A stretch of 43,946 nt of DNA from a virus: IMG/VR virus record IMGVR_UViG_3300046519_000455, positions 1-43,946 of that record; one strand, written 5' to 3'. Under the pieces are notes generated by a model. That model searched no databases and had not been told where the DNA came from. It saw nothing but the letters and a program-made list of their open reading frames with translations. Below, piece by piece: positions 1 to 43,623 of the stretch. Within the stretch, counting starts at the first letter, position 1; each line of letters begins with the position of its first letter. The position numbers and the translations under genes were made by a program.

Positions 1-1104
1 TCAAACGGCAGACGTAAAGGGCCCCGTTGCCCCTCCGGTGGGGGATGCGTGGGGGATGGCGAAGGGCGCAGAAATCTGCGGTTTTTGCCCGTTGCCTCCC
101 TCAAAATTCCCCACCCTTATCAACGCTTCCTCCAGATTTTGCGGCTTCACATGCGCATAACGCATGGTCGTTTCGATCCTCTTGTGGCCCATCCACTCCT
201 TTATGACAAATATATTTATGCCCGCGTCCACCATACGGGTGGCCCGAGTGTGGCGCGTGACGTGGAAAACGAACTCGTTATCATGCTCCAGCCCCATTCG
301 CTTCTTGGCCCGCTCCCACCACGAACGCAGATTGCGCCGAGTCGGCATCGTTCCTGTGGCCACCAAGTCGGTAAGCATTTCGGTCGTGGCGGGGCTCATA
401 GGAACGGTGCGGGGCGTGTCGGTCTTCGTCTCCCATAGGTGAAGGCGGTTGCCGTTTATCTGCCCCTTCTCAACCGTGAGTATCTCATCCCGGCGACACC
501 CGGTTTCGATCGCGACCTTAACGACCTTCCAGACATTGTCCGGGAGATACTCGGAGAGCTGATCTTCTTCCGCCTCTGTGATCCAGCGGATTCGACCGAC
601 AGCCTCCTTACGCCACCCAAAGTCTATCACGTCCTTGATGGCGATCGACCGATACCCCCTGCCCTTTGCCCACACGAGAAACGAACGGAGGTGAGAGATA
701 TATCGGTTGATGGTCCCGTCAGCGAGCTTGCGGCGCTTGAGGTGCGTTATGACCTTATCGACCTCAAGCGTCCCCACGTCGTCTAGAAGGGTGTTCTTGC
801 CCAGGATGCGGGACACTGTTTCGATGTGGGCCCAGCAGTCCTTCTCGCTGCTGAGGCCGTCCCACAGCTTCCCTTGGGCCTTGGGGACCACCGTAGCGAA
901 CGTGTGGACGTCTGGGGCACCGATGATCGGCTTAGAGGCGTCAACGTCCTCTCCGCGTTCCCAAGCGGCGAGAATGGCACCTTCGTCCTCCTCCGCCTGC
1001 TTAAAAGTGTCCCAGCGCTTGCGATACCGCTTTCCGCCTTTTTGGAGCTCAACTCGAAAACGGCCGGTGAGCTTCCCGCTCTTTTTGTCGGGATATATTG
1101 CCAT
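1..1104 (-). CDS. int: Tyrosine recombinase (phage integrase)
   Basis: Site-specific recombinase that integrates and excises the prophage. The 367-residue protein has an N-terminal arm-binding-like region (about 1-70), a SAM-like core-binding domain (about 75-165) and a C-terminal catalytic domain. The catalytic set is visible: Arg204 in TGCRRDE, Lys227, His281 and Arg284 in HVTRH, His307 in GHKRIETT and nucleophile Tyr316 in MRYAHV. The ATG follows GGAG at a 6-base spacing and lies 3 bases after the stop of the upstream regulator gene, so the two are probably cotranscribed. The stop codon is the first three bases of the window, so the left attachment site must lie outside. The family is certain; the target, tRNA-Leu, is inferred from the right junction. 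Confidence 0.95.
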   Translation of the reverse strand: MAIYPDKKSGKLTGRFRVELQKGGKRYRKRWDTFKQAEEDEGAILAAWERGEDVDASKPIIGAPDVHTFATVVPKAQGKLWDGLSSEKDCWAHIETVSRILGKNTLLDDVGTLEVDKVITHLKRRKLADGTINRYISHLRSFLVWAKGRGYRSIAIKDVIDFGWRKEAVGRIRWITEAEEDQLSEYLPDNVWKVVKVAIETGCRRDEILTVEKGQINGNRLHLWETKTDTPRTVPMSPATTEMLTDLVATGTMPTRRNLRSWWERAKKRMGLEHDNEFVFHVTRHTRATRMVDAGINIFVIKEWMGHKRIETTMRYAHVKPQNLEEALIRVGNFEGGNGQKPQISAPFAIPHASPTGGATGPFTSAV

Positions 1105-11222: not shown

Positions 11223-13511
11223 TCAGTTTTCGTATTCCGGGTCCGGCTCGACAATGAGGTTGCCGTTGCGGACGGTAGAGTGCGCTACGCCCTTGGGATT
11301 GGCGGCGAAGTATTCAGCCATGGCGGCGTCATGGACATCGTCCGGCACATCGCTGAGCGTGGCCCAAGAGCCTTCGCGAACAACAGGTTGGATGCGCTGT
11401 CCCGCCGCTTTGGCTGCTACGATACCGCTACGGTGCAGGAGGTCTCCGAAAGCACGGTCCTTCTCCGCCGTGGCAGCGATCTGCTGCATCAGCTCTTCGA
11501 TGTTGCGCGGGTCACTTTCGGTGACGATCTGCGACACCCGGTCCTTGACGGCGTTGCGGTACTGACCGTTTGCCCGAGAAGCTAGGAAGTCCACAGCGCT
11601 GGAAAGCATCCCACGCGGACTAAGCGCACTTAGGGACTTGCCGCCCAGTTGGGCATCCAGGTCCGCATCGAGCGCCTGACGGCTCGCGGTGCGTGAGTTT
11701 CCATTGACCTCCCGGAACAGAAGGTTCCCCTGCTGCTCGGCTTCGAGGCGTGTCAACAGGTCCCTGACGGAGCCGTTGTTGCCCATCATGGACCCAATGG
11801 CCTGCTGCTTCGTCGGATCGCCGATCGCCCGCTCCACGGCCTTGGAGGCATCCCCTGTCGGGAATCTTGCTCCGTATTCGGATGCCGTGTCCGCCAGCGC
11901 CGTTCGGGCGCCTATAGCCCACGAGGGCTGAGCGTTCTCAGGCATGGCCCGTGCAGTAGCATTGATTTCGTGGCCGGTCTGGTTGGCCACACCCTGCCCT
12001 GCATTGAATGCGTCTCGTTGGGCCATATCGTCAGCATACTGGGCCGTTACGTCGCCATAGGCTTGGTTCTGGTCCGCGATCTGCTGTCGGAGGTCCCGTG
12101 CGCGGCTGTTGATATGGACGGAGTTGGTCGTGTCCACCGGTCGGAAGCCGCTGGTATTCATGGCCGCCCTGCCGTTGTCGCGCATGGCCCTAATGACCTG
12201 ATCGAACCCTTCGGTCGAAAGGTTCTTGTCCAACACCAACATGCCCTCCGGCGTGATGATGTGGGGCACGTTCGGCGCCATCGTCCCCGGTTGTGGGTTC
12301 GGCACAAGGCGGAGCCCCAGGGCCTCAGGATTGCGCATGGCGTTGCGGATGTTCCGCATGGCCTGCGGGACGGCCTCAGCGAACGCGGGAGTCTGCATGA
12401 TCGCCTGAATTTCGGGAGTCACCACCATAGGCTGCGCATAGGCCTCAGCGTACTTGGGCGCGGCCTGTGCCTTCGCCCTCGCGGCGTGCTGCTCCATCTG
12501 TTGCAGCGGGTCGCCCACGGGCCCCATCGTTTCGATGACGTGCTGGCGGACGCGAGTTGCCTCATCGGCCTTGCGGCGCTCTACGGCCTCAACGACCCTG
12601 CGCTGTCCCGGACCCATTCCGCGAGACGCCCAGCTCGTGAGGTTCCGCATGGGTTCGGTGACGTCGCCGGGGATCGCAGGCACATTCATAGCTTGGCGGG
12701 CCGCAACCTCCGACGCGATAGCTTCCGGGCTCGCAGGAGCCCCCGGTGTGCCAAAGCCGCGCTGAATGTTCCCTTCCCCCATGGCTTCCGCCGCCATACG
12801 GTTGGCCTGGGCGGTTGCACGGTCGTTAGGTCCGATACGGCGTCGGTTCAGGAGCGCACGAGGGATATTCGCCAGACGGCGTGTGGCCGCTTCCGCACCT
12901 GGAATATTCTCGCGGAGAAATCGTCCCCCGCGTGCCCCGGCCGCAAGAACGGGAGTGGCAAGCGCCCCCAGTCCTGCCCCCATGGCGCCGGAACTAAGCG
13001 AATTGGCGCCACGCTCCGCTAGGCCTTCGCCTTCGCCAGCGCCGGAAAGCGCCCCGTAGGCCGCACCGACTTTAGCGCCCTGAAGCATCTTGGAGCCCAT
13101 TCCGACACCACGCATCGCTGCGCCAGCGGGAAGGAACAGGCCTGCACCTATGCCGCCGATTGTGGAGGCCCAAGCGAGGTTGGGATGCTCCGCATCGTAC
13201 TGGTCCTGGTTGGCCTTGAATTCAGCCTGACCGCGATCGAACGCAGCCCCTAGTCCCTCATCGGTGCCCAAGGACCAAATAGCGGCCGGAATGCCCCCAA
13301 GGAGCTCATCGCCCCAGTTGGGGAGCACATTGTCCACTACGTCGCCAGCGAAGTCGCCAGCGGTCTGCCAGCCGGATCGCGGAGCCTTAGTGGGTGCGGG
13401 TTTCTGTGCTTGGGCCTGAACCTGCGCAAGGACCTCTTCAGAGGTTGCGCCGTCTGGCGCCGTGACGTTGTACGTTGAGCCGTCTGGGCCCTTCACGCGG
13501 TATTGAGGCAT
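11223..13511 (-). CDS. Large internal/ejection virion protein
   Basis: A 762-residue protein. The N-terminal region (MPQYRVKGPDGSTYNVTAPDGATSEEVLAQVQ) resembles a motif common in phage internal proteins. It is followed by a Gly/Ala-rich, membrane-active-looking segment (GGIGAGLFLPAGAAMRGVGMGSKMLQGAKVGAAYGAL, about residues 120-215) and a long helical, Gln/Ala/Arg-rich remainder. This composition fits podoviral ejection proteins that form a trans-envelope channel during DNA entry. It shares the TAATG junction with the upstream gene. Function inferred from size, composition and position. Confidence 0.6.
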   Translation of the reverse strand: MPQYRVKGPDGSTYNVTAPDGATSEEVLAQVQAQAQKPAPTKAPRSGWQTAGDFAGDVVDNVLPNWGDELLGGIPAAIWSLGTDEGLGAAFDRGQAEFKANQDQYDAEHPNLAWASTIGGIGAGLFLPAGAAMRGVGMGSKMLQGAKVGAAYGALSGAGEGEGLAERGANSLSSGAMGAGLGALATPVLAAGARGGRFLRENIPGAEAATRRLANIPRALLNRRRIGPNDRATAQANRMAAEAMGEGNIQRGFGTPGAPASPEAIASEVAARQAMNVPAIPGDVTEPMRNLTSWASRGMGPGQRRVVEAVERRKADEATRVRQHVIETMGPVGDPLQQMEQHAARAKAQAAPKYAEAYAQPMVVTPEIQAIMQTPAFAEAVPQAMRNIRNAMRNPEALGLRLVPNPQPGTMAPNVPHIITPEGMLVLDKNLSTEGFDQVIRAMRDNGRAAMNTSGFRPVDTTNSVHINSRARDLRQQIADQNQAYGDVTAQYADDMAQRDAFNAGQGVANQTGHEINATARAMPENAQPSWAIGARTALADTASEYGARFPTGDASKAVERAIGDPTKQQAIGSMMGNNGSVRDLLTRLEAEQQGNLLFREVNGNSRTASRQALDADLDAQLGGKSLSALSPRGMLSSAVDFLASRANGQYRNAVKDRVSQIVTESDPRNIEELMQQIAATAEKDRAFGDLLHRSGIVAAKAAGQRIQPVVREGSWATLSDVPDDVHDAAMAEYFAANPKGVAHSTVRNGNLIVEPDPEYEN

Positions 13512-20846: not shown

Positions 20847-20885
20847 GGCGTTAAGTGCCGATTGTGGATAGGCCACATTTGGCAT

Positions 20886-22610: not shown

Positions 22611-22748
22611 ATGATCATTGATCGTTCCGCCACAGCCCAAGCGCTCGCCAAGGCCATCGCGTTCAAACAGTGCGGAAAGGACCAAGAGGCGGCCGAATGG
22701 GCACGCCGACTTGTCGAGCTTCTAGAGCTTTCGGAGATACTGAGATGA
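22611..22748 (+). CDS. Small early protein, paralogue of the protein at 24384
   Basis: A 45-residue product (MIIDRSATAQALAKAIAFKQ, then CGKDQEAAEWARRLVELLEL). It is almost identical over its whole length to the N-terminal 45 residues of the product of 24384-24569. GAGG precedes the ATG by 8 bases. Its stop overlaps the next ATG (ATGA). The repeated amphipathic helix suggests a helical, possibly inhibitory, protein. Function unknown. Confidence 0.75.
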   Translation: MIIDRSATAQALAKAIAFKQCGKDQEAAEWARRLVELLELSEILR

Positions 22749-24383: not shown

Positions 24384-24569
24384 ATGCAAATCGATCGATC
24401 CGAAACGGCCCAAGCGCTCGCTAAGGCCATTGCGTTCAAACAGTGCGGCAAGGACCGGGAAGCGGCTGAATGGGCCGCCAAGCTCGTCAGGTTGCTGCGG
24501 TGCCATGAGATACTGAGGGAGCATGAGCGAACCCGTCCGCCTCTTCATGGCAAAGCAATGGGGCCGTAA
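24384..24569 (+). CDS. Small early protein, paralogue of the protein at 22611
   Basis: A 61-residue product. Residues 1-45 (MQIDRSETAQALAKAIAFKQ, then CGKDREAAEWAAKLVRLLRC) duplicate the 45-residue product of 22611-22748. The C-terminal extension (REHERTRPPLHGKAMGP) overlaps the start of the RMF-like gene in another frame, which suggests the original stop was lost. The duplication 1.7 kb apart within one operon suggests a dosage- or variant-driven role. Confidence 0.65.
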   Translation: MQIDRSETAQALAKAIAFKQCGKDREAAEWAAKLVRLLRCHEILREHERTRPPLHGKAMGP

Positions 24570-24735: not shown

Positions 24736-24912
24736 ATGTTTCAAGTAATAGACACGGTCGAGGGCGGCTTAGTGGTCGATACGTTCCCAACGTTCCGAAA
24801 GGCGCATAACGCCGCCCGGAGGGTCGAGAGGGAACCGGAAGGCCCCTTGCTGGGCTATCGGTCCATAACTGGCGATACGCGCGATTGGCGCTATCAGATA
24901 TATCGCCTGTAA
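24736..24912 (+). CDS. Small early protein, unknown function
   Basis: A 58-residue product (MFQVIDTVEGGLVVDTFPTF, then RKAHNAARRVEREPEG and WRYQIYRL) with AAGGA 10 bases upstream of the ATG. The layout, a short strand pair, a helix and a terminal strand, is reminiscent of the other small early proteins here. It is the last rightward gene before the ribbon-helix-helix gene, which it overlaps tail to tail by 19 bases. Confidence 0.6.
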   Translation: MFQVIDTVEGGLVVDTFPTFRKAHNAARRVEREPEGPLLGYRSITGDTRDWRYQIYRL

Positions 24913-25121
24913 GCCCGTGAAGGGCTTTGCGTTTCCGCAGCCACTTCCGCATCTGTAGGGATCGGCACGCCCGCCCGGTCTAGCTCCGCGTCCACAATGC
25001 TGCGGATAGCCTCCGCCCTGGACGGCAATCCCGGCTGCTGGCTGCGCCATTTGTCCACGCGCACCAGGAACGCTGGCGAAACGACCATGTTAAATTTGTG
25101 GGATTTCAAATCGTTACTCAT
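24894..25121 (-). CDS. Ribbon-helix-helix (CopG/Arc-like) DNA-binding protein
   Basis: A 75-residue product from the ATG at 25121 (a TTG at 25130 is an alternative). The strand KFNMVVSPAFLVRVD, the helix WRSQQ, then SRAEAIRSIVDAELDRAG form the beta-helix-helix pattern of ribbon-helix-helix regulators, which dimerise and bind operators through the strand. It is encoded divergently from the SOS-box region, with overlapping promoters between. A perfect 10-bp palindrome, GTTGCGCAAC, touches its start codon and is a natural autoregulatory site. It is a candidate lysis-lysogeny regulator. Confidence 0.7.
   Translation of the reverse strand: MSNDLKSHKFNMVVSPAFLVRVDKWRSQQPGLPSRAEAIRSIVDAELDRAGVPIPTDAEVAAETQSPSRAYRRYI
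24911..24928 (+). terminator. Weak terminator-like hairpin at the end of the early operon
   Basis: AAGCCC/GGGCTT with a 5-base loop, followed by TTTGCGTTT. It begins at the stop codon of the last early gene and lies inside the 3' end of the opposing regulator gene. The stem is short and the T tract interrupted. Confidence 0.4.
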
Positions 25122-25159
25122 GTTGCGCAACTTATATATGTTCGGCGCTTGACGGGCAA
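25122..25159 (-). promoter_or_regulatory. Promoter of the ribbon-helix-helix gene with palindrome at the start codon
   Basis: On the minus strand, -35 TTGCCC (25154-25159) and -10 TATAAG (25131-25136) are spaced by exactly 17 bases. Transcription would begin within a few bases of the ATG at 25121, so the mRNA may be leaderless, consistent with the absence of a Shine-Dalgarno sequence. The palindrome GTTGCGCAAC lies between -10 and ATG. Confidence 0.6.
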
Positions 25160-25294: not shown

Positions 25295-25429
25295 CGTCCC
25301 AATGTGGGGCAGCGGCCGGAGCGTAATCTTGCCGATCGGCCGCGAGCGGGGGACTCTCCCATTCCATCCACAGATTTTTTGGCCTGCTAGGAAATTTCCT
25401 GTTTCCTACTCATCCTCAGCACGCATATA

Positions 25430-25444
25430 GAACAAAAAGAGAAC
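25430..25444 (+). promoter_or_regulatory. Putative LexA (SOS) box of alphaproteobacterial type
   Basis: GAAC-AAAAAGA-GAAC, an exact GAAC-N7-GAAC direct repeat, the LexA site established for alphaproteobacteria. An additional palindrome AGAACGTTCT (25445-25454) follows immediately. It lies 29 bases upstream of the ATG at 25473, and a -10-like TATAGA (25426-25431) overlaps its first half. DNA damage would derepress the downstream gene, a plausible induction input for the prophage. Confidence 0.6.
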
Positions 25445-25472
25445 AGAACGTTCTCGCAACGAAGGATTTGGA

Positions 25473-25658
25473 ATGATTGCACAAAACATGAGCGAGCCGG
25501 TGGTCGATCCCGAGCTCTCCTTAACCGAAGGATATTGCGAATTCATGGGGGACGGCTTGGTCGCGATCCACCAAGTGGATGAGGACGGAAAGGCACACAG
25601 TGTGCACATAACTGAGGATGATTTGCGGGCCATACTGACCCGAGCTACCGCTAAGTAA
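25473..25658 (+). CDS. SOS-box-controlled small acidic protein, possible antirepressor
   Basis: A 61-residue acidic protein (MIAQNMSEPVVDPELSLTEG, GDGLVAIHQVDEDGKAHSVHI, EDDLRAILTRATAK) with AAGGA 7 bases before the ATG. It forms a single-gene transcription unit between an SOS box and a strong terminator. Small acidic SOS-induced proteins in prophages can inactivate the repressor; that role is my inference from regulation and size. No family recognised. Confidence 0.6.
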   Translation: MIAQNMSEPVVDPELSLTEGYCEFMGDGLVAIHQVDEDGKAHSVHITEDDLRAILTRATAK

Positions 25659-25682: not shown

Positions 25683-25713
25683 AAGGGCCTGGGCTGCAAC
25701 CTGGGCCCTTTTT
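25683..25713 (+). terminator. Rho-independent terminator after the SOS-controlled gene
   Basis: AAGGGCC/GGCCCTT stem with a short inner pairing, followed by TTTTT (25709-25713), 24 bases after the stop codon. Confidence 0.85.
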
Positions 25714-25847: not shown

Positions 25848-26528
25848 TTATCCTGCATCAGTTTCGGACTGCTTGGCCTCAGCCTTCAAGGCAGCATAGG
25901 CTATGCAGTCCTCAGCGCTGTCTTGGTGGTAGCCCGGCTTCGTGAAGAGCCGAACGTCCTTGAGGACCTGGAGCAACAGCCAGCCTTGTGGCTCACTCAG
26001 CTCGTGGCCTGTGATCGCGTTGAATGCGCGGACGGCCTTACCCATTGAGCGCTCGGACCCGCTAGCGTCGTATTGCTTCCCACGTTCGGCCATGAGGTCG
26101 GCGGCCTTCGTAAGGAGCTCAGGGGCGCTTTGCGTGCTTGATCCCTTTTGCGGGACCGGAGGGTCGAGACAGTCACAAGGGCAGATGGCGAGGTGTGCCC
26201 AGTCCGCCCTTCCCGATCCCCGACAAATTTTGCAATCCGGGTCCGCCTGCGGTGCGGTCTTGTCGAAGTCTGGGCCTGCCTGTTCAGGGGCAAGGCTCTC
26301 CACGAGCTCCGAGTAAACGGTGGTCGCCTTCTCCAGGTCGAAACGGGACAGGTCGTTGCCAAGAGCCGCGTCTAGGGGCGCACGGACTGCGACGTGATCC
26401 GCTTCAGGATCAAATTCAACACACGGCGTGGAGACCACAACCGTCTCCGGCCGCGTAATCCTACATCCGAAAGCGGCACAGTCACGCCGAATGCATTCGC
26501 CGACGTGGCCGCTACATTTCGTCCTCAT
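25848..26528 (-). CDS. DUF6378-type phage protein with Cys-rich motif
   Basis: A 226-residue protein. The N-terminal half contains several Cys residues, and a clear CX2C-x14-CXC cluster (CKICRGSGRADWAHLAICPC) around residue 100 probably binds zinc. The C-terminal 90 residues (LLTKAADLMAERGKQYDASG, then AFNAITGHELSEPQGWLLLQ and YHQDSAEDCIAYAALK) match the DUF6378 family, common in phages and of unknown biochemical role. It is the last gene of the leftward operon and overlaps the preceding gene by 4 bases (ATGA). Confidence 0.75.
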   Translation of the reverse strand: MRTKCSGHVGECIRRDCAAFGCRITRPETVVVSTPCVEFDPEADHVAVRAPLDAALGNDLSRFDLEKATTVYSELVESLAPEQAGPDFDKTAPQADPDCKICRGSGRADWAHLAICPCDCLDPPVPQKGSSTQSAPELLTKAADLMAERGKQYDASGSERSMGKAVRAFNAITGHELSEPQGWLLLQVLKDVRLFTKPGYHQDSAEDCIAYAALKAEAKQSETDAG

Positions 26529-26731
26529 GCGCCGCCCCCCTTGTGGAGCGCCTGCCCGAGAATATCGACCAGCTCGCGGGCCTGTTCGACGCCAATCTGG
26601 ACGTCATGCAAATCCCCATATTCGGAGACCTGAGCCAGTGCGATGCAGTCGCCCATATCCGTTACGGATAGGGTATCGAAGCCGGGTTCTTCGATGACGC
26701 GCACAGCGGACGGATTGGCAGAAGTTGCCAT
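26525..26731 (-). CDS. Hypothetical protein
   Basis: A 68-residue acidic product (MATSANPSAVRVIEEPGFDT, GDCIALAQVSEYGDLHDVQI, EQARELVDILGQAL). The alternating strand-helix pattern suggests a small alpha/beta domain. It overlaps the following gene by 4 bases. No family recognised. Confidence 0.6.
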   Translation of the reverse strand: MATSANPSAVRVIEEPGFDTLSVTDMGDCIALAQVSEYGDLHDVQIGVEQARELVDILGQALHKGGGA

Positions 26732-38656: not shown

Positions 38657-38881
38657 TCAGGTGTGCGCCGCGAACGTATAGCGCTTGTAGCGCCGATTGC
38701 TCACGGGATGGGCCGCCACTTCGCTGGTGATCTTGTAGCCAGCCTTGCGCAGCTCAGTGATGCGCCGGGTGAAGGAGCCCGAATTGATGTCGAGGTCCAG
38801 AAGGGCTTCACGGGGCGATGCGGTGCCCTTGGCCTGGAGATAATCCAGAACCTCTTTGGCGCGGGGGGACAGTTGGGTCAT
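38657..38881 (-). CDS. Small helix-turn-helix protein
   Basis: A 74-residue product (MTQLSPRAKEVLDYLQAKGT, ASPREALLDLDINSGSFTRR, ITELRKAGYKITSEVAA) with the helix-helix-recognition helix-wing pattern of winged HTH proteins; the C-terminus NRRYKRYTF forms the wing strand. The conserved form ELRKAGY-x-I is typical of phage/plasmid HTH proteins that may not be repressors. Last gene before a terminator, downstream of the lysozyme gene. Confidence 0.65.
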   Translation of the reverse strand: MTQLSPRAKEVLDYLQAKGTASPREALLDLDINSGSFTRRITELRKAGYKITSEVAAHPVSNRRYKRYTFAAHT

Positions 38882-40751: not shown

Positions 40752-40760
40752 TTTCTAGGC
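40743..40760. repeat. 18-bp direct repeat, copy at the 3' end of the RNA polymerase gene
   Basis: ATTGTGCCGTTTCTAGGC, identical to 43399-43416 upstream of the polymerase start. The copy contains the polymerase stop codon. The pair brackets the gene exactly. Confidence 0.7.
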
Positions 40761-43367
40761 AAATGCGTACATGCTTTCCCGCACCAAATTCAGGTCCAAA
40801 TCGCCCTTAACGGGCACGGGCGGCAACTTCTCAATCCCCTCGTCCGAAAGGACACTCCGTGCATAGCGGTCCAGCTCCTCCAAGGGGCAATAGGTCTCAT
40901 AGCAGCTAATGAACGCCTCGCGGATGATGCGGCTGAACGCTGCCATATTGCCTGCGTGGGTCCCGAAGCTGTCATGGATCATCGCGAAGTGCCGGATGCC
41001 CTCAGCGTGCGCCATGGCCACAGAGCGCTGAAGGTGCGCACCGTCCATGGAGTGGATGACGTTCGGGGAGGACGCTGAGCGCATCCGCTTCTTTTCGACG
41101 CGCTTGGTGGGGGCTTCTCGTACCAGGACCCTCACGCGTGCCAGCACATCCCCACTATCAAGTAATTTGTCGTGCGAATTCGGCACCGTGAGTTTGCGAT
41201 TATACAGCCAGAATTCCACCTGTTTACTGGTGTACTCACTGTAGCGTTGGACCACGGGCATACCGGTCTGGGTCCGCCAGATGAGTGATAAGCTCTCATG
41301 CGCCAGCACAGCGGCAACGCTCTGTATCCATCCGGCCGCTTCATCCGCCTTGGGCGCCACGGACACCACAGCGTCGAAGGTCGCATTGGCCATCCGATGG
41401 GCGCAGCTATAGCCGCCGTCGAGCATCAGGGACTTTTCGCCCGTCTCCTTGTTCTCCCGCTCTGCCAGGATCGCATAAGGGTGCCGGGACAGCTCGCCCA
41501 TAGAGACCTTATCGGCGATCGGCCGCATCGTGTCCTCTAAGTGCTGATCGCGCATTCCGAACCTTGCCGATCCGTAGAAGTAGGTCATGACGTTACGCTT
41601 CACCTCTGAGCGCCCAAAGCCGTTATGGAGGATGATGGAGGCGATACGGCCATCATGGGACAGCGGGTCGGCGGCAAGGTCCTGAAGGCGCGGTACGGCC
41701 GCATCAGCCACGACCTGATAGATATCGCCCACGGTGTCGCGCGGCGTCAGGTTGACGTGGTGCGCTTCCTCCGCAGAGCGCGTAATGGCCGAATAGTGCT
41801 GAAGGCCCGAACAGGACCCATCGGCCGCAATGGCGATCGTGGAATGGAAGTCAGGCGAGAAGTTCGACCGCATCCATTCGTCATATTCGAAGCAGGCCTG
41901 GAGGAAACAGAACGGGCTGTCCGCTTGCGACCAGTAGTCATAGGTGCCTTCAGGATCGCGAGCGCACATGAGGATGTCCAGCTCGTTGGCACGGACCCAG
42001 GCGATGCGGTCGGGAAATGGTGCCTTTGAGGCCTTGCGGCCGTCAGGCGTCTTGAAGTCCCCGCAGTTCGCGAGGTGGATCATGAGCCAGTCGCCGCCAT
42101 CAGGTCCTAAGGGAACCGCGTCCGCGAAATGGAACAAGGCCTTCATATGGTCGGAGCGCTGGTGATTGAAATGGGGGACGGCATAGACGCGACCCCGGAA
42201 GTCCAAGCTATGAGGGAGATAGAAGGCCTCATGCTCCGACAGGAACTCAGCGAGCCCGACGTCCTCAGCGAACACCTTGCCATCTACGGCCGCTCCGGCC
42301 CTAATGTCCTTCACGGCCTTGCGGGAACGGGAAAGGGCTGAGCGCTTCGCTGGGTCCATTGCGGCCCACTCGTCTGGGGAGAGCTTTTCGACGGGCTCAG
42401 GGAGTTGAGAGGCCGGGAAGGACTTGGACGGGCGCAGCCCTTCCTCTCGGCACCAATTCACCATCGCGAGTACGCGGGTGTCGATCGCCCACCGGGTCTC
42501 CTGGATCGCGTTGACGGCGTCGAGGACCTCTTGCATCGATCCGTCAGCGATGGCGGCCTTCAGGAGCTTCTTGTGCTCAGAGCTAAAGGTGCGGACCAGC
42601 GGCACCAGCTTTGAGAGCCGGACGTCGTGGTAGCAACCTGAGTGCAGCGCAGTCCAAGGGCGCGGCGGGACTATCATGGGCTGGAAGGGCGGACGGGCGA
42701 AAGCGAGCGCTTCGGACATTTCGTGCATCTCCGCGACAGCTTCATCCGTAAGCTGGACGACGACCTGTCGACTCTTTTGTGTCTCCTGATAGAAGAGGCC
42801 TTTGAGGGCTAGCAGGGCGATACCTAACAACGACTGCCCCACGCCTGCCCGTGTGGGCATAGACCATCCCAAGTCCACGTCCGCCATGGCCGCAAGGTGC
42901 CGGTGCGTGTCTTCGATCGTGGCGTCTGTCGCGCCGCGATCGGTTAGAGTCTTAATGCGCTTGGCGGCCTTAGGGTCCGCTTCGGAGAGTGCGTCCGCCT
43001 CCAGCTCCGCTTGGACGGCGAATCCTATCGATGTGATGATATTGACGACCAAGCCGCCCTTAGGCAGCTCACGGAACATGCGGGCCAGAGTGATGAAGGC
43101 CAGCTTGTCGGCGTCGAGAAGCGCAATTGCCTTGTAGCCTGAGGGCTTCCGCCCCTTCCCGCTGTTTGCGCAGTCCTCAGTCCACTTTCGGATGGCGGCG
43201 CCAAGGATCGGAACAGCCCCCCTAATCATCTTGGCGACGTCGTCGCGCCGATCGAAGCCCTCGCGCTTCGCGATTTTTTCCTGCTTCTCAAAATAGCGCT
43301 TGGCGCCCACAGTCAGCGAGGCGTCCTCAAAGTCACGCTGGGAGTCCAGGAGTGATTTTTCGTACAT
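40755..43367 (-). CDS. T7-type single-subunit DNA-directed RNA polymerase
   Basis: An 870-residue polymerase (T7: 883). Motif A DGSCSGLQHYSAITR has catalytic Asp516. Motif B GRSEVKRNVMTYFYGSARFG has Arg586, Lys590 and Tyr598 (equivalents of T7 Arg627, Lys631 and Tyr639). Motif C MIHDSFGTHAG has Asp799. SPNVIHSMDGAHLQRS precedes it, and the protein ends in AFA, like the T7 C-terminal foot. All residues needed for activity are present. It would transcribe the two operons that carry the 24-bp promoter. AGAGGAG precedes the ATG. It lies nearest the attachment site, last on the prophage map. Confidence 0.97.
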   Translation of the reverse strand: MYEKSLLDSQRDFEDASLTVGAKRYFEKQEKIAKREGFDRRDDVAKMIRGAVPILGAAIRKWTEDCANSGKGRKPSGYKAIALLDADKLAFITLARMFRELPKGGLVVNIITSIGFAVQAELEADALSEADPKAAKRIKTLTDRGATDATIEDTHRHLAAMADVDLGWSMPTRAGVGQSLLGIALLALKGLFYQETQKSRQVVVQLTDEAVAEMHEMSEALAFARPPFQPMIVPPRPWTALHSGCYHDVRLSKLVPLVRTFSSEHKKLLKAAIADGSMQEVLDAVNAIQETRWAIDTRVLAMVNWCREEGLRPSKSFPASQLPEPVEKLSPDEWAAMDPAKRSALSRSRKAVKDIRAGAAVDGKVFAEDVGLAEFLSEHEAFYLPHSLDFRGRVYAVPHFNHQRSDHMKALFHFADAVPLGPDGGDWLMIHLANCGDFKTPDGRKASKAPFPDRIAWVRANELDILMCARDPEGTYDYWSQADSPFCFLQACFEYDEWMRSNFSPDFHSTIAIAADGSCSGLQHYSAITRSAEEAHHVNLTPRDTVGDIYQVVADAAVPRLQDLAADPLSHDGRIASIILHNGFGRSEVKRNVMTYFYGSARFGMRDQHLEDTMRPIADKVSMGELSRHPYAILAERENKETGEKSLMLDGGYSCAHRMANATFDAVVSVAPKADEAAGWIQSVAAVLAHESLSLIWRTQTGMPVVQRYSEYTSKQVEFWLYNRKLTVPNSHDKLLDSGDVLARVRVLVREAPTKRVEKKRMRSASSPNVIHSMDGAHLQRSVAMAHAEGIRHFAMIHDSFGTHAGNMAAFSRIIREAFISCYETYCPLEELDRYARSVLSDEGIEKLPPVPVKGDLDLNLVRESMYAFA

Positions 43368-43387: not shown

Positions 43388-43416
43388 TTTATACTGCGAT
43401 TGTGCCGTTTCTAGGC
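43388..43416 (-). promoter_or_regulatory. Predicted host-type promoter of the RNA polymerase gene with operator-like repeat
   Basis: On the minus strand -10 TATAAA (43388-43393) is good; 17 bases upstream the -35 is poor (GCCTAG). The spacer and -35 are occupied by the 18-bp repeat (43399-43416) and by the motif copy TACTGCGATTGTGCCG (43392-43407, plus). A poor -35 under an operator-like element suggests a tightly regulated promoter. Confidence 0.45.
43399..43416. repeat. 18-bp direct repeat, copy upstream of the RNA polymerase gene
   Basis: ATTGTGCCGTTTCTAGGC, the second copy of 40743-40760, in the same orientation and 2656 bases away. Matching regulator sites, or the footprint of a cassette insertion or duplication, could explain it. 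Confidence 0.7.
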
Positions 43417-43441
43417 GAGTGATTCGGCATCTGCAAGAGAC

Positions 43442-43478
43442 AAAAAGAGAGCCCCGGACGGTTCCCCACCCGGAGCTC
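43442..43478 (-). terminator. Terminator between the attachment site and the RNA polymerase gene
   Basis: On the minus strand GAGCTCCGG/CCGGGGCTC (9 bp, one G-U) with a 12-base loop runs into TCTTTTT. It would stop transcription entering from the host tRNA-Leu promoter before it reaches the polymerase gene. Confidence 0.8.
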
Positions 43479-43544: not shown

Positions 43545-43580
43545 TATTGCACAATCGGAATATACTGCACACTTGGTAAC
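43545..43580 (-). promoter_or_regulatory. Tandem operator-like motifs beside the attachment site
   Basis: On the minus strand GTTACCAAGTGTGCAG (43565-43580) and TTCCGATTGTGCAATA (43545-43560) are spaced about 20 bases apart. The first shares 15 contiguous bases with 21936-21950. The second overlaps an inverted repeat CCGATTG/CAATCGG (43534-43560). They could serve as repressor sites or as arm-type integrase/excisionase sites. Confidence 0.45.
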
Positions 43581-43583
43581 AAT

Positions 43584-43623
43584 AACCTAAATCTGGCGCG
43601 TCTACCAGTTTCGCCACGCCCGC
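43584..43623 (-). tRNA. Partial tRNA-Leu (5' half), right attachment junction
   Basis: On the minus strand GCGGGCGTGGCGAAACTGGT, then AGACGCGCCAGATTTAGGTT are the acceptor 5' strand, D-arm and anticodon stem-loop of tRNA-Leu with a TAG anticodon. After the loop the sequence becomes prophage: CCAGA has no TCTGG partner and no T-arm or acceptor 3' strand follows. The break in the anticodon loop marks the crossover region. The intact tRNA would have to be rebuilt at the other end, outside the window, or the gene is interrupted. Confidence 0.8.

Follow-up and report, generated by a model that had tools for sequence, protein, structure and literature searches.

A conserved LexA-type operator before a small acidic gene: a candidate damage-responsive trigger in T7-like prophages of sphingomonads

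Gifsy, 186 and N15 encode small LexA-controlled proteins by which the phage repressor is inactivated (PMC3121763). The proteins of this kind, GfoA, GfhA and GftA of Gifsy, FsoA of Fels-1, Tum of coliphage 186 and AntC of N15, are each the product of a single LexA-controlled prophage gene located outside the immunity region, and they act on the repressors of lambdoid, P2-like or linear-plasmid phages (PMC3121763). In GIL01 and some other phages the host LexA itself serves as a phage regulator through direct repression, which in GIL01 falls on the phage's own main promoter (PMC4551915). For the temperate T7-like phages LUZ100, Pasto and HTVC019P, MarR-like repression of the expression of the phage RNA polymerase has been proposed, with the MarR-like gene lying beside the integrase; the words "SOS" and "LexA" are absent from the main text of that report (PMC10134795).

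The locus analyzed in the present work resembles the first of these groups in that a small prophage protein is encoded by a lone gene which is very likely under LexA control, but here the phage is of the T7-like type, a CI-type repressor did not turn up in it, the protein falls into none of the families described so far, and the operator has the direct-repeat form of alphaproteobacteria. As in GIL01, host LexA would serve the phage as a regulator; it would act, however, on a separate single-gene unit, while at the promoter of the phage RNA polymerase gene a LexA box was looked for and not found. With LUZ100, Pasto and HTVC019P the locus shares the combination of a T7-like RNA polymerase with an integrase and the association with tRNA-Leu, and LUZ100 encodes both the best match to the RNA polymerase described here (31% identity) and a relative of its winged-helix protein, but control in those phages is proposed to run through the MarR-like gene, and the present locus has a conserved gene preceded by a LexA-type operator. 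The circuit would thus be of a known kind, a LexA-controlled small prophage protein, and it appears to be new in temperate T7-like phages as far as open-access full texts go, among which no prior report of SOS control in such phages was found.

An integrated T7-like prophage and its relatives

The window, by which is meant the whole stretch of DNA analyzed, is a virus record 43,946 bases long. Its minus strand carries the genes for a T7-type RNA polymerase, a primase/helicase, a DNA polymerase, an exonuclease, a portal protein, tail proteins and a tyrosine integrase, so that the set expected of a temperate T7-like phage (RNA polymerase, primase/helicase, polymerase, exonuclease and integrase) is present together in one genome. 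The window also encodes an ArdA anti-restriction protein. The first-pass annotation had placed the locus in a phage type whose induction circuits are little known, which is apt, because temperate T7-like phages are poorly understood. Reading from the right end, the window contains part of a tRNA-Leu(UAG) gene, a terminator, a host-type promoter and the RNA polymerase gene (Table 1). Because the tRNA-Leu(UAG) junction is of the kind seen in sphingomonad genomes that carry related phages, the sequence identifies the window as an integrated prophage; its host can be taken, from these relatives, to be a sphingomonad.

The window was compared with four further prophages found in sphingomonad genomes, all five being distinct, syntenic and T7-like. 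Three of the relatives were found through RNA and DNA polymerase searches, namely G1 (in genome G023), S5 (locus L097, in Sphingomonas asaccharolytica NBRC 15499, genome G005) and L17 (in G432), and the fourth, G584, was found through the small acidic protein itself. All five have tRNA-Leu(UAG) junctions, which define a chromosomal integration site. Viral contigs searched with the 61-residue acidic protein and the RHH-like protein alone gave no match, and the S. asaccharolytica orthologue of the acidic protein had no relative in annotated phages or plasmids.

Several features of these prophages are recorded here as separate observations. A terminator-like hairpin at 43441-43478 (minus strand) lies between the captured 5' half of the tRNA-Leu gene and the phage RNA polymerase gene, as if shielding the latter from the host tRNA promoter, and G1 is arranged likewise. 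An 86-bp repeat at 22617-22702 and 24390-24475 of the window (86% identical) corresponds to two copies of a small gene (ETAQALAKAIAFKQCGKD...); it is found in G1 too, and a similar one in L111. In G023 (C1, about 711800-762000; L125, L113-L115) two T7-like RNA polymerase genes, 38% and 59% identical to that of the window, each begin next to tRNA-Leu(UAG) sequence, and two T7-like prophages apparently stand there in tandem at one attachment site.

Table 1. Positions of the features discussed (window coordinates unless a locus or genome is named)
Feature	Position	Strand	Remarks
Tyrosine integrase	1..1104	-	
78-aa ORF	24894..25130	-	Judged RHH-like by eye; oriented divergently to the SOS gene
Palindrome, AGGAAATTTCCT then TTTCCTAC	25389..25409	+	From leader alignment and motif scan
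Candidate -10 element TATAGA	25426..25431	+	Touches the LexA box; weak, by eye
LexA (SOS) box GAACAAAAAGAGAAC	25430..25444	+	Exact GAAC-N7-GAAC
61-aa acidic protein ORF	25473..25658	+	Candidate LexA-controlled gene
Intrinsic terminator AAGGGCCTGGGCTGCAACCTGGGCCCTT-TTTGC	25683..25710	+	11 pairs; closes the single-gene unit
68-aa paralogue of the 61-aa protein	26525..26731	-	Early operon, opposite strand
74-aa winged-helix protein (HTH_39)	38657..38881	-	In 5/5 prophages, 70-85% identity
T7-type RNA polymerase gene	40755-43367	-	
Host-type promoter TTGCAG-17-TAGAAA	43408..43436	-	Before the phage RNA polymerase gene
tRNA-Leu(UAG) 5' half (first 40 nt)	43584..43623	-	Attachment-site junction, right end of window
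16-bp dyads, S5 (G005:C2)	7609, 7644, 7811, 31107, 31144, 50792		
16-bp dyads, G432 (L171+L172 joined)	3290, 3325, 3493, 25776		
16-bp dyads, G584 (L168+L169 joined)	15130, 35706, 35874, 35907		
RNA-like element	L097:18711-18901 (-), L017:16806-17003 (-), L168:18009-18182 (+)		In 3/5 prophages

The operator, its conservation and the host SOS sites

The annotation from which this work started had described a GAAC-N7-GAAC box before an isolated, acidic 61-residue gene closed by a terminator, and this description is borne out: the box ends 28 nt before the ATG at 25473, AAGGA is present at 25462-25466, and the gene is followed by its own terminator of 11 base pairs. The accompanying term "lysogeny region" fits only loosely: the integrase is 24 kb away, and the gene stands on the opposite strand with the replication module to one side of it and the structural module to the other. 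On its own the box falls short of significance: the window contains 2 matches to GAAC-N7-GAAC where 1.22 are expected, and at least 2 occurred in 35 of 100 shuffles. The second match (12642-12656, minus strand) was rejected as a chance occurrence, since it scores only 10.4 bits with the host-derived matrix described below and lies inside a structural gene (11223-13511).

It is the comparison between prophages that separates the box from this background. In each of the five prophages an exact GAAC-N7-GAAC, always in the same orientation, stands 28-48 nt 5' of the orthologue of the acidic gene; these genes have 58-90 codons, and their products have pI values of 4.05-4.48. The leaders have diverged, as have the 7-nt spacers (AAAAAGA, AAACCGC, ATAGTAA, GTATCAG and GAAAGTA), and the eight box positions are unchanged. 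When the leaders were shuffled, 0.14-0.57% contained a box, and the product for the four phages other than that of discovery is about 9e-11, a value that is not an exact probability because the phages share ancestry. The acidic gene is the only LexA-boxed gene common to all five. A sixth orthologue, in G542, is preceded by a box that departs from the motif at one position; its contig, which ends shortly beyond, showed no T7-like genes next to it.

The same box marks SOS genes of the host group. In S. asaccharolytica it precedes lexA (two overlapping boxes), recA, uvrA, an imuA-like gene, a Y-family polymerase gene, uvrD, rmuC, an SRAP gene and an AlkB-like gene, and it is found upstream of lexA in all four host genomes (G005, G023, G432 and G584) and in G542. 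With a matrix built from ten host sites and no phage site, the box of the window scores 23.9 bits and is the best site in the window, the next scoring 14.6; the corresponding boxes head the ranking in G1 and G432 but come second in G584 and fourth in S5, one of the three higher-scoring S5 sites belonging to a phage SRAP gene. The conservation in four further prophages, together with the fit to a matrix trained on host sites, places the box far beyond chance. Since the box is conserved in all five prophages, matches host operators and is the best site of the window with the host matrix, and since the prophage is integrated, LexA control of the acidic gene is very likely.

The leader contains other signals. 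No promoter of the sigma-70 consensus was detected at the LexA box by a consensus promoter scan, which also missed the TATAGA that touches the box. Upstream of the box, TCCTAC occurs at the same leader position in all five prophages, in four of them as the end of a dyad which has no other occurrence in the phage genomes scanned, and the AGGAAATTTCCT/TTTCCTAC element is a candidate promoter element or operator for some protein. Three of the five prophages carry, close upstream of the LexA box, a conserved and strongly folded RNA-like element of 174-198 nt (GGGTGTGGAAACC...GGTTTCCACCCCCC), with a z-score of -5.25 in L017 and paired-side changes visible by eye; it has no Rfam match, and in one genome ARAGORN called part of it as tRNA-Pyl(cta). 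In the S. asaccharolytica prophage, an SRAP (HMCES/YedK-type) gene (L097:20560-21236, plus strand) has a LexA box of its own, GAACATAATAGGAAC, 38 nt upstream, and may be a second LexA-controlled phage gene there.

The acidic protein and the candidate regulators

The 61-residue protein has a pI of 4.41 and a net charge of -8. Searches of Pfam and NCBIfam gave no match for it, and PHROG none of significance. AlphaFold modelling with six sequences predicts residues 21-59 with confidence (block pLDDT 82-88) as a beta-beta-beta-alpha core, preceded by an N-terminus predicted to be disordered; Foldseek searches of the PDB and of viral models returned no significant match for the fold. Likeness to known antirepressors was found neither in the sequence nor in the fold. 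A paralogue with the same M-G-D motif is encoded in the early operon about 1-2 kb from the acidic gene, the relatives have counterparts of it close to their SOS gene, and more distant family members lacking a LexA box occur elsewhere in Sphingomonadaceae. Because of this paralogue and these boxless members, the fold cannot be tied to SOS control, which appears to be a property of the present orthologue rather than of the wider family.

The first-pass annotation had gone on to suggest a damage-induced antirepressor switch, to be checked for interaction with two regulators. The conserved box and gene and the matching host SOS operators strongly favour the LexA-controlled part of this proposal, but an antirepressor acting on such regulators is no more than plausible: a repressor did not emerge from the analysis, the protein resembles no known family or fold, it has a paralogue in the early operon, and the RHH-like ORF next to the gene in the window (24894-25130) has no match in prophage G1. 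The winged-helix protein, whose gene does not lie beside the integrase, is conserved in all five prophages, and it is treated as only a candidate regulator because it also has relatives in other podophages, among them Roseobacter phage SIO1.

Dyads of 16 bp (GTCYGCAnnTGCRGAC) recur in three prophages in the attachment-site arm, at the promoter of the RNA polymerase gene and, close to the end of the opposite-strand region, upstream of the gene for the tail fibre; they may be lysogeny operators or arm sites for the integrase. Sites with a CACAATCGS core occupy the RNA polymerase promoter (43389-43404, minus strand), the attachment-site arm (43550-43565, plus strand) and the region upstream of the tail-fibre gene (20851-20866, minus strand) in the window, and are possibly its own version of these dyads.

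The proposed switch and its alternatives

The presence of a LexA site before the gene in all five viruses makes the acidic gene probably a damage-responsive trigger of these T7-like prophages. Starting from what the sequence itself contains, namely an operator that has been kept together with its gene, operators of matching sequence in the hosts and the integrated state, the following course of events can be proposed. In the lysogen, host LexA would bind the GAAC-N7-GAAC operator and keep the one-gene unit silent; DNA damage would lead to RecA-driven cleavage of LexA and so to expression of the gene; and the small acidic protein would then promote induction of the prophage. The simplest route would be for the protein to bind and inactivate a phage protein that holds the single-subunit RNA polymerase off, the release of which would turn on the whole lytic programme. 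The antirepressor step and its target are the most conjectural part of this scheme. Against it weigh the want of any match to an antirepressor, the paralogue in the early operon, the boxless family members, the negative result of the sigma-70 promoter scan at the box, and the sites that outscore the box in G584 (one) and S5 (three). That a prophage should keep one LexA-controlled single-gene unit through large divergence would fit an induction trigger, by analogy with Gifsy, 186 and N15, and it is about an even matter whether the protein, silenced by LexA and released by damage, favours induction in an antirepressor-like manner. The fuller proposal, that a new protein family is the SOS-to-lysis switch of temperate T7-like phages and frees expression of the single-subunit phage RNA polymerase, where lambda-like phages rely on cleavage of CI, is advanced tentatively, at somewhat less than even strength.

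The main alternative, less probable but likewise compatible with the evidence, is a different role for a gene under the same control: the protein could act on the host or on defence after damage or induction, for example as an acidic DNA mimic or by inhibiting a nuclease, a protease or the host RNA polymerase, induction being decided elsewhere. Its strong acidity would suit such a role, as would its neighbours (ArdA in the window; in the relatives, an SprT-like protease and the LexA-boxed SRAP gene), the paralogue of the same family in the early operon and the boxless members at other loci. The protein is small, however, and matches no DNA-mimic family, and a separate unit holding the only LexA-boxed gene that all five prophages have in common suits a switch better than an accessory function. 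It is quite unlikely that the box is instead the operator of a phage-encoded repressor which uses the same sequence as host LexA; some phages, with GIL01 as the example, encode LexA-like regulators (PMC6182141), but an identical box stands at host lexA, recA and uvrA, no LexA-like repressor was seen among the phage proteins scanned, and none of the other conserved phage promoters carries the box. A chance match devoid of function, which the expectation of about one GAAC-N7-GAAC per window might suggest, is considered to be refuted computationally and is highly improbable, given a box kept in five prophages despite divergent flanks and spacers and in agreement with the host matrix.

The trigger reading bears on the question of how temperate T7-like phages hold and leave lysogeny, for which the published model is hypothetical, MarR-based and devoid of any input from DNA damage. 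A conserved operator for host LexA before one conserved gene would offer a defined, single-gene route toward the prophage's repressor, and one such prophage is carried by Sphingomonas asaccharolytica NBRC 15499, a named strain that can be cultured.
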